Assembly: GCA_937934595.1 (NCBI GenBank)
Contig: CALGZA010000025.1
Span: 1-64,000 of the forward strand
DNA length: 64,000 bases
Direction of reading: 5' to 3'
Source: an uncultured Verrucomicrobiales bacterium
Lineage (GTDB): Bacteria > Verrucomicrobiota > Verrucomicrobiia > Verrucomicrobiales > Akkermansiaceae
The notes under the pieces were generated by a model. It made no database searches. It saw only the letters and a list, made by a program, of their open reading frames with translations, and was not told where the DNA came from. Within the stretch, counting starts at the first letter, position 1, and every line of letters starts with the position of its first letter. Of this stretch, positions 43,906 through 46,607 are shown in pieces. Both the position numbers and the translations under genes were made by a program.

Positions 43906-44015
43906 GCTAATTTTGCCACATTACTCACCAACGTAAATCATATTTTAAAGAAAATAGAATAGAGATTGATACCTTCACCAGCTATGCTAACGTTATCTTA
44001 ACTAATTACTGATAA

Positions 44016-44486
44016 ATGAAACTAATAACAAAAATCACCACCTCTACAGCCATCGCCACCATCTGCTCTTTTACATCACTCACCCACCTAGCAAAAGCAC
44101 ACTGCGAAGTGCCATGCGGAATTTACTCAGATAAAACAGTTTTCGCTGATTTACACACTCACCTCGCCACTATCGAGAAAGCCATGAATCAGATTAACTC
44201 TCTCTCAAAAGAACCCAGCAAAAACGCCAACCAACTCACACGCTGGATCAACAATAAAGAATCACACGCTACAAAAATCCAAGAAATCGTCAGCCAATAT
44301 TTCCTCACTCAGCGAATCAAAGTAGATGAAGCTAAAACAAATAAAAACGCCTACTTACTCAAGCTAACTCAGCTCCACCAAATCACAGTCCTAGCCATGA
44401 AATGTAAGCAAACAACGGACGTAGAACATGCACAAAAACTCCATAACGTAATTGACCAATTCAAAATCAACTACGAAAAAAAATAA
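44016..44486 (+). CDS. sodN: Exported nickel superoxide dismutase
   Basis: A 156-residue protein in which the Ni-hook motif HCEVPCGIY (family HCxxPCGxY) follows a Sec-type signal peptide ending LAKA. Cleavage after Ala28 would directly expose His29 as the new N-terminus, which is the residue that must be free to bind Ni. The rest is a four-helix-bundle-like protein of ~128 residues, near the size of mature NiSOD. Classical NiSOD is made with a short propeptide removed by SodX and is often cytoplasmic; here signal peptidase could do both export and maturation. No sodX is adjacent. Confidence 0.85.
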   Translation: MKLITKITTSTAIATICSFTSLTHLAKAHCEVPCGIYSDKTVFADLHTHLATIEKAMNQINSLSKEPSKNANQLTRWINNKESHATKIQEIVSQYFLTQRIKVDEAKTNKNAYLLKLTQLHQITVLAMKCKQTTDVEHAQKLHNVIDQFKINYEKK

Positions 44487-44535: not shown

Positions 44536-45390
44536 ATGATTATTTTTAGCAATTCAAGAGCTATTGCCACCACTGCAGCCATTCTCATATCCGCTGCAGC
44601 CTCCACACTCATGGCTCAGAATGCAAAAAATCCAGCATCAAAACCCGATATAAAAAAACAACCTACAACCGCTGAAGAAAAAAAAGTCCCCGCCCCACCC
44701 GTTAATGAGTTTAACGTCATCTCAAAGATCAAAAAAATCGACAAAAATACCGTCCAGATTGGTAAAGTCATAATCAGCAAAAAAGATCGCACCATTTCAT
44801 TCCCAGCAGAATCCGAAATCACCTCAGAAATCGTAGAGTGTGCCGTCGTCACTGCTGCCGGAAGAATTCACGAGTCTCTATTTGTAACCGAAACCAAACC
44901 AATCGACCTCAACCTTGGTTTTAAGCTCCTTGGCTTCAAAGAAAATAAATCAATCTTCCACGTATTCAAGAACGGCAGCCCTACTCTAGAATTTCAAAAA
45001 AGCCCTGAAGATCACATAAAAAAGTCGTTCTTCACTATCCACGTCAGCTGGACAGATGATAAAACAAAAAAAATAATCACCAAAAACATCAATGAACTAT
45101 TCGGCGGTGCTTATAAGAAAATCCCTGCCGCTGAAAGAGCTACTCAGCAATGGTCATACGGTGGATCATTTTTCCACAAAGGACAATTCGCCGCAGGACT
45201 CACACATGACCTCATATCCATTTTTGTAGAACGTGCCGCTGTAGGTAACTACTCAGGTAAATACAAAGAAAATGCCTCCGTCAAAGGAAACCAAAATGAA
45301 ATAAAATGGGCCGCCATCAGAAAAGCCATGCCTAAAAAAGGCACCCATGTAACCATCATCATTAAACCAGAATTAAAAAACTCAAAATAA
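44536..45390 (+). CDS. Secreted YdjY-domain protein
   Basis: A 284-residue protein with a signal peptide (ATTAAILISAAASTLMA) and a charged linker. The YdjY-like domain is recognisable from ISKKDRTISFPAES, VVTAAGRIHESLFVTETKP and NLGFKLLGF. YdjY proteins are common in Planctomycetes and Verrucomicrobia; their role is not known. It lies 49 bases after sodN and 8 bases before the squalene-cyclase-repeat gene, so the latter two probably form one unit. Confidence 0.8.
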   Translation: MIIFSNSRAIATTAAILISAAASTLMAQNAKNPASKPDIKKQPTTAEEKKVPAPPVNEFNVISKIKKIDKNTVQIGKVIISKKDRTISFPAESEITSEIVECAVVTAAGRIHESLFVTETKPIDLNLGFKLLGFKENKSIFHVFKNGSPTLEFQKSPEDHIKKSFFTIHVSWTDDKTKKIITKNINELFGGAYKKIPAAERATQQWSYGGSFFHKGQFAAGLTHDLISIFVERAAVGNYSGKYKENASVKGNQNEIKWAAIRKAMPKKGTHVTIIIKPELKNSK

Positions 45391-45398
45391 ATAAATCC

Positions 45399-46607
45399 AT
45401 GAAAACCAAAGCCAAAACAAGCATACTAACCGCAGGTGCTATTTCAGCAATCACCCTATCCTCAGTTTATTACTTACACGCCCAAAAACAAGACACTAAA
45501 CCCTCTGCTAAAACAACGCAGCCTACAGTAACCACACAGCCTGCCTATCTATCACTCAAGCTAGAACTAGAAAACGCCATTAAAACAGGCAATCAATACC
45601 TCAAAAAAGCACAAGATAAAAAAGGTTACTGGAAAGACAACACCATCCCAGCATACACCGCCATGGCCATCACCGCTGCCATGCGTGATCCAAATCTAGA
45701 CATAAAAAACACCCCAGAACATATCAAATCAGCATACAAATGGCTACTCTCCACACAGAAAAAAAATGGCGGATTCTACGTGAAAGGTCTAGCCACATAT
45801 AACACTGCCACTGGTATAATGGCTCTCGCCGCATCAGGTGACCCCGCACACATCGAGGCCATCCGTAATGGTCGTAACTTCCTCATAAGCCAACAGGCTG
45901 ACTTCGGTGATAACAAAGCCATGAAAAACCTAAGCGGCGGAGTAGGATACGGTGCTTCAGCGCCTCACTCCAACATGTCTACCACAACACTCTCAGTTGA
46001 AGCTATCAAGATAACTGAAGCCTTAGTCAAAGATTCTGCAGGAGAAAACCATCAAGACTTAGACTGGGATAGCCTCATAGAATTCGTCTCAAGATGTCAA
46101 AACCTTCATGAAACAAATAAGCAACCAGGAATTAGCAACGACGGCTCATACGTTTACTACCCAGGTGAATCAAAAGCAGGCACTCAGAAAAACGTAGACG
46201 GAACCGAAACACTCAGAGGATACGGATCCATGACCTACGCTGGCCTATTATCCATGATCTACGCTGACCTTGATGAAGAGGACCCCAGAGTCACCTCCGC
46301 AGTTGACTGGCTTAACAAAAACTTCACCACCAAAGAAAACCCAGGAATGGGACAACAAGGCCTCTACTACTACTTTAACATAATGGCTAAAGCACTAAGC
46401 GCAGCAAACATACAGACCATCACCACCAAAGACGGAAAAAAAGTAGACTGGCGCTCAGAACTCTCCAAAAAAATCCTCACTTCACAGCGAGAAGATGGAT
46501 CATGGACTAACAAAAACAGCCGCTGGTGGGAAAACCAACCAGAATTAGTCACCTGCTACGCAGTTCTAACACTTGAAACCATTCACGGATCATTACCAAA
46601 TAAGTAA
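45399..46607 (+). CDS. Secreted squalene-cyclase/prenyltransferase-repeat protein
   Basis: A 402-residue protein with an N-terminal signal/anchor segment (SILTAGAISAITLSSVYYL) and an alpha/alpha toroid of repeats of the squalene-cyclase type (QDKKGYWKDNTIPAYTAMA, QKKNGGFYVKGLATYNTA, REDGSWTNKNSRWWENQPE). The catalytic DxDD of true cyclases is not evident. Similar genes often occur beside MoxR/BatA clusters in Planctomycetes/Verrucomicrobia, as here. The function is unknown. It ends just before an intrinsic terminator. Confidence 0.82.
   Translation: MKTKAKTSILTAGAISAITLSSVYYLHAQKQDTKPSAKTTQPTVTTQPAYLSLKLELENAIKTGNQYLKKAQDKKGYWKDNTIPAYTAMAITAAMRDPNLDIKNTPEHIKSAYKWLLSTQKKNGGFYVKGLATYNTATGIMALAASGDPAHIEAIRNGRNFLISQQADFGDNKAMKNLSGGVGYGASAPHSNMSTTTLSVEAIKITEALVKDSAGENHQDLDWDSLIEFVSRCQNLHETNKQPGISNDGSYVYYPGESKAGTQKNVDGTETLRGYGSMTYAGLLSMIYADLDEEDPRVTSAVDWLNKNFTTKENPGMGQQGLYYYFNIMAKALSAANIQTITTKDGKKVDWRSELSKKILTSQREDGSWTNKNSRWWENQPELVTCYAVLTLETIHGSLPNK

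Follow-up and report, generated by a model that had tools for sequence, protein, structure and literature searches.

A nickel superoxide dismutase with a predicted signal peptide points to maturation by signal peptidase I in an uncultured Verrucomicrobiales bacterium

The window, a 64,000-nucleotide stretch of contig CALGZA010000025.1 from an uncultured Verrucomicrobiales bacterium, encodes a nickel superoxide dismutase (NiSOD) that very probably belongs to an exported clade, in which signal peptidase I exposes His1 of the nickel hook, nickel is loaded outside the cytoplasm and superoxide is removed in the cell envelope. This reading rests on sequence, fold prediction, conservation and gene content, from which we infer cleavage, location, nickel loading and activity. 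The features of the locus are given in Table 1.

Table 1. Features of the NiSOD locus, with positions in the window
Feature	Position	Strand	Basis
NiSOD gene, very probably exported product, 156-aa precursor	44016..44486	+	PF09055 match
28-residue Sec-type signal peptide (predicted), MKLITKITTSTAIATICSFTSLTHLAKA	44016..44099	+	sequence, leader statistics
Predicted signal peptidase I site, Ala-Lys-Ala then His29	44091..44102	+	motif position common to relatives
Nickel hook HCEVPCGIY (mature His1, Cys2, Cys6)	44100..44126	+	alignment of 75 sequences
Mature 128-residue domain, predicted four-helix bundle	44100..44483	+	AlphaFold2
YdjY-domain protein, signal-like N-terminus	44536..45390	+	NF040466, 77.8 bits

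Family assignment, nickel hook and predicted fold

The start of the leader is fixed by an in-frame TAA (44013-44015) ahead of the ATG and by the remaining Met residues, all of which lie in the mature part. Sod_Ni (PF09055) spans residues 26-155 of the 156-residue product (101.8 bits against a cut-off of 25, E 5.2e-29), and by profile score, HCxxPCGxY hook and a predicted four-helix bundle like that of 1q0d and 1t6u the protein is a member of this family. The NCBIfam sodN equivalog, TIGR02753, gives it 40 bits and thus falls short of the cut-off of 90; the same model gives SodX-type NiSOD controls 142-165 bits. The nearest named relatives of the enzyme come from uncultured Rubritalea (72-75% identity) and a Verrucomicrobiales MAG (77%), and the NiSOD leader and N-terminal sequence are identical in a genome of the window's genus (L018) and Rubritalea marina (L107). 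The source, a marine bacterium, is therefore most likely Rubritalea-like, within the Verrucomicrobiota. A promoter scan gave a signal no greater than in shuffles, and a search of viral contigs returned no relatives.

The AlphaFold2 model, made from 75 mature sequences, has four long helices (pLDDT 93.9, pTM 0.87), with low confidence in the first ten residues, as expected for a metal-free hook. NiSOD structures top the Foldseek list (probability 1.00, E 6e-3), and 1q0d, also a NiSOD, is the best VIA match, with Z 14.6 and an rmsd of 2.0 over 113 residues. The first unrelated bundle, FliS, reaches Z 12.2, and since helical bundles score high Z values generally, the fold alone is not taken as proof. 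Neither phmmer nor the clade profile matched any solved NiSOD by sequence, which leaves Pfam and the fold as the grounds for linking the protein to 1q0d.

Identity to the Streptomyces NiSOD in the structural alignment is only 12%, and Streptomyces Arg47, part of the hydrogen-bond network, appears to be replaced by the clade-invariant His56 with which it aligns, a correspondence made tentative by a four-residue gap nearby. Together with Cys2 and Cys6 facing an oxidising compartment, this divergence would suit a protein that follows the proposed route through export and signal peptidase I cleavage, with a hook that binds another metal (e.g., copper) or forms a disulphide and serves as a metal buffer or in some other role. 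The hook itself speaks against such a protein, with His1, Cys2, Pro5, Cys6 and Gly7 invariant in the 75 aligned sequences and Tyr9 present in at least 90%; the predicted fold is that of NiSOD, and the conserved free His1 N-terminus fits the NiSOD ligand set. We consider a non-dismutase role unlikely. A weak point of the exported-NiSOD reading is that the envelope could oxidise Cys2/Cys6 or load copper.

The leader and its junction with the hook

The original prediction gave the enzyme a signal peptide and placed the nickel hook directly behind an AxA-type site (LAKA), and both points are borne out. Assigned by simple leader measures and by comparison with relatives, the leader MKLITKITTSTAIATICSFTSLTHLAKA has the features of a Sec/signal peptidase I substrate: a basic n-region (Lys at 2 and 6), an apolar core and a c-region, AKA, with small residues at -3/-1. 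Residue 29, with its codon at 44100, is the His of HCEVPCGIY, and the leader end LAKA stands directly before it. With a best 11-residue Kyte-Doolittle mean of 1.7, this core is less hydrophobic than is typical of the exported set (median 2.6). The leader contains no Arg and hence no twin-arginine motif, and a lipobox was sought in it and not found, the +1 residue being His and not Cys.

Numbering back from the hook His, a signal-peptidase-type motif (position -3 small or aliphatic, position -1 A/G/S) lies exactly at His1 in 139 of 144 relatives (distinct signal-peptide-type sequences, about a dozen phyla); five break the rule, and Ala occupies -1 in 123. A joint match would arise by chance in about 8% of cases given mature-protein composition and in 22% given leader composition, a formal p-value being meaningless because the sequences are related. 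The leaders themselves are variable, from 17 to 38 residues long, with the cut site fixed relative to His1. The apolar core reaches at least 1.5 in 136, and the first eight residues are net positive in 126, of the 137 leaders measured. To judge from these sequences, the juxtaposition of leader and His1 is not a matter of chance. NiSOD peptides lose their activity when the N-terminus is acetylated, and the enzyme itself requires His1 to be fully active (PMC5722923), which makes a free His1 a sensible target of selection.

Of the 195 genomes of the window's family, 76 carry Sod_Ni, as do 46 of the 288 in its phylum. A scan of genome contigs yielded 80 further loci (Bacteroidota, Desulfobacterota, Calditrichota, Gemmatimonadota, Planctomycetota, Zixiibacteriota and others), in which the conservation of the hook is partly by construction because the hook served as the search pattern, and that of the leader is not.

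Two variants of the junction deserve mention. In two loci from different phyla (L106 4076-4495 and L096 907-1317) X-Pro precedes the hook, with VLA ahead of NP-HCEV and HPA ahead of FP-HCEI; signal peptidase would leave a dipeptide here, which a DPP-IV-type peptidase could remove, freeing His1. Two Bacteroidota NiSODs (L101 735-1169 and L124 4028-4441) carry a signal peptide, then Gln and a prosegment of ~24-27 residues before the hook, which would call for a further cleavage; the arrangement fits the Bacteroidetes Q-rule, which conflicts with His at +1.

SodX, signal peptidase and other dismutases

NiSOD has been described as cytoplasmic, cyanobacteria without sodX are possibly unable to use it (PMC8346466), and a cognate peptidase processes SodN (PMC3919588). 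A route that dispenses with SodX, as originally proposed, agrees with the gene content: family searches of the window's own genome find no SodX-like protein at E 0.001, and the relatives that were checked are likewise without one. None of the 288 genomes of the phylum has a SodX above the curated cut-off (top score 36 bits), none of the ten best SodX-like matches in the phylum adjoins a listed NiSOD, and eleven further genomes with an exported-type NiSOD give SodX-like scores of at most 29 bits. The curated cut-off was rejected as a test of absence: TIGR02754, the SodX model (cut-off 63), misses real SodX proteins adjacent to sodN, which score only about 54-55 bits (L156 1384-2292) and 44 bits (L152 2497-3270), and the absence of SodX therefore rests on scores well below those of these known cases. 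SodX censuses based on TIGR02754 undercount.

The same genome encodes a single signal peptidase I, an S26 protein of 425 aa that contains IPTNSMYPTL (SMYPT motif). At another family member (L004 164-1866, - strand), a full signal peptidase I gene follows the NiSOD gene on the same strand. The family searches found no CuZn-SOD (SodC) in the window's own genome and one Fe/Mn-SOD, which has no signal peptide, starts directly at its domain (MAFELPELGY) and is read as cytoplasmic. Dupont et al. are said to have described divergent sodN clusters in 2008, along with a correlation of sodN with the absence of Fe-SOD. The presence of sodN and Fe/Mn-SOD together in this genome fits different compartments.

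Sod_Ni occurs in 17 of 247 genomes of Desulfobacterota, the phylum of Desulfacinum, and a signal peptide precedes HC in 16 of the 17. In genome G490 the NiSOD (L156) begins with MYKLIKALDSKFGFDQAKA, a leader that lacks an apolar core, and a SodX of 100 aa lies just downstream on the same strand; as a positive control, this SodX scores 54 bits in the genome search, and none of the other sixteen genomes exceeds 27 bits. The leader of the Novosphingobium plasmid NiSOD (L152) is likewise non-hydrophobic; SodX lies downstream of this NiSOD gene and a HupE-like gene upstream. The Nonomuraea NiSOD (L151) has a short leader of 12 residues; a search of its 5-kb locus with the Novosphingobium SodX found no SodX. 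The contrast draws on four SodX-type sequences only; the SodX-type leaders found here are 12-19 residues long with cores of 0.6-0.9, against the exported-set median of 2.6 and the 1.7 of the window leader. In the unrooted tree, a branch with SH-aLRT 99 separates L156, L152, L151 and the S. coelicolor NiSOD from 52 exported-type rows. As far as sequence goes, exported-type NiSODs form a broad, separate clade whose leader type is consistently linked to the absence of SodX, a result that goes beyond the original prediction.

SodX-type leaders, too, end A-x-A or V-x-A-like before His (QAKA, EAQA, TVSA), and the assembly is 95.9% complete, so one may ask whether the window leader is a SodX-type propeptide on a cytoplasmic enzyme, with a dedicated protease that has diverged or been missed. 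The shorter leaders and lower cores of the SodX type, and the absence of a SodX-like protein from this genome and its relatives, make this very improbable. SodX matches S26, as does signal peptidase I, and with the similar leader ends the two routes seem to draw on one peptidase chemistry in two ways. Least credible of all is an uncleaved membrane anchor or lipoprotein signal: the hydrophobic stretch could in principle remain in the membrane, but there is no lipobox, the signal peptidase motif keeps its fixed distance from His1 in nearly all relatives, and by NiSOD chemistry (PMC5722923) an uncleaved form could not offer nickel the free His1 amine.

Genomic neighbourhood

Downstream of the NiSOD gene on the same strand, positions 44536-46607 of the window encode two proteins whose N-termini are signal-like, the YdjY-domain protein and a squalene-cyclase-like toroid protein. 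The trio of NiSOD, YdjY and toroid genes is retained only in the three closest relatives, outside which no conserved NiSOD neighbours were found. A candidate cluster of neighbours from 36 loci was discarded, as it most likely arises from the NiSOD gene itself, read in an antisense frame.

Proposed maturation and its significance

For an exported NiSOD, the signal peptide would direct the unfolded precursor through the Sec translocon, a cut after AKA by general signal peptidase I would expose His1, and the released apo-enzyme would fold as the NiSOD four-helix bundle. Outside the cytoplasm, nickel would then bind to His1, Cys2 and Cys6, and the mature enzyme would remove superoxide in the cell envelope, with the cytoplasm served by the separate Fe/Mn-SOD. 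SodX would be dispensable, because signal peptidase I, like SodX, is of the S26 type and cleaves after a small residue.

For this large NiSOD clade as a whole, which covers about a dozen or more phyla, we think it reasonably probable that the proteins are envelope enzymes whose metal ligand is made by signal peptidase I, with export and activation a single step. Cytoplasmic NiSOD would be the alternative solution to this problem, processed by SodX, a soluble protein related to signal peptidase. If this is true, general export machinery makes a nickel site, the lack of sodX is to be expected in the exported clade, and the census of sodN should be split by compartment; it may also explain how the envelope is protected in bacteria without CuZn-SOD. 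The literature searched describes neither an exported NiSOD nor maturation of NiSOD by signal peptidase; earlier subscription literature may mention it.

Comparison with known systems

The window protein shares with the Streptomyces SodN/SodX system (1q0d, 1t6u) the HCxxPCGxY hook, the four-helix fold (here predicted) and the removal of a leader directly before His1 (likewise predicted here). Unlike that system, it has a signal peptide in place of a short non-hydrophobic leader, has no SodX, falls in a separate clade and scores only 40 bits against the sodN cut-off of 90. The SodX-type NiSOD of Desulfobacterota (L156, G490) has the same hook and a leader that also ends AxA before His, but this leader lacks the apolar core, sodX lies directly downstream and the NCBIfam sodN score is 165 bits.

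The algal ubiquitin-NiSOD fusions similarly place the NiSOD domain behind another N-terminal module; they differ in being eukaryotic and in having ubiquitin instead of a signal peptide (PMC6332867), and a ubiquitin protease would presumably free His1 there. Finally, the exported CuZn-SOD (SodC) of Gram-negative bacteria, although unrelated in fold and metal and absent from this genome, is alike in the role proposed here, that of an envelope SOD beside a cytoplasmic Fe/Mn-SOD.
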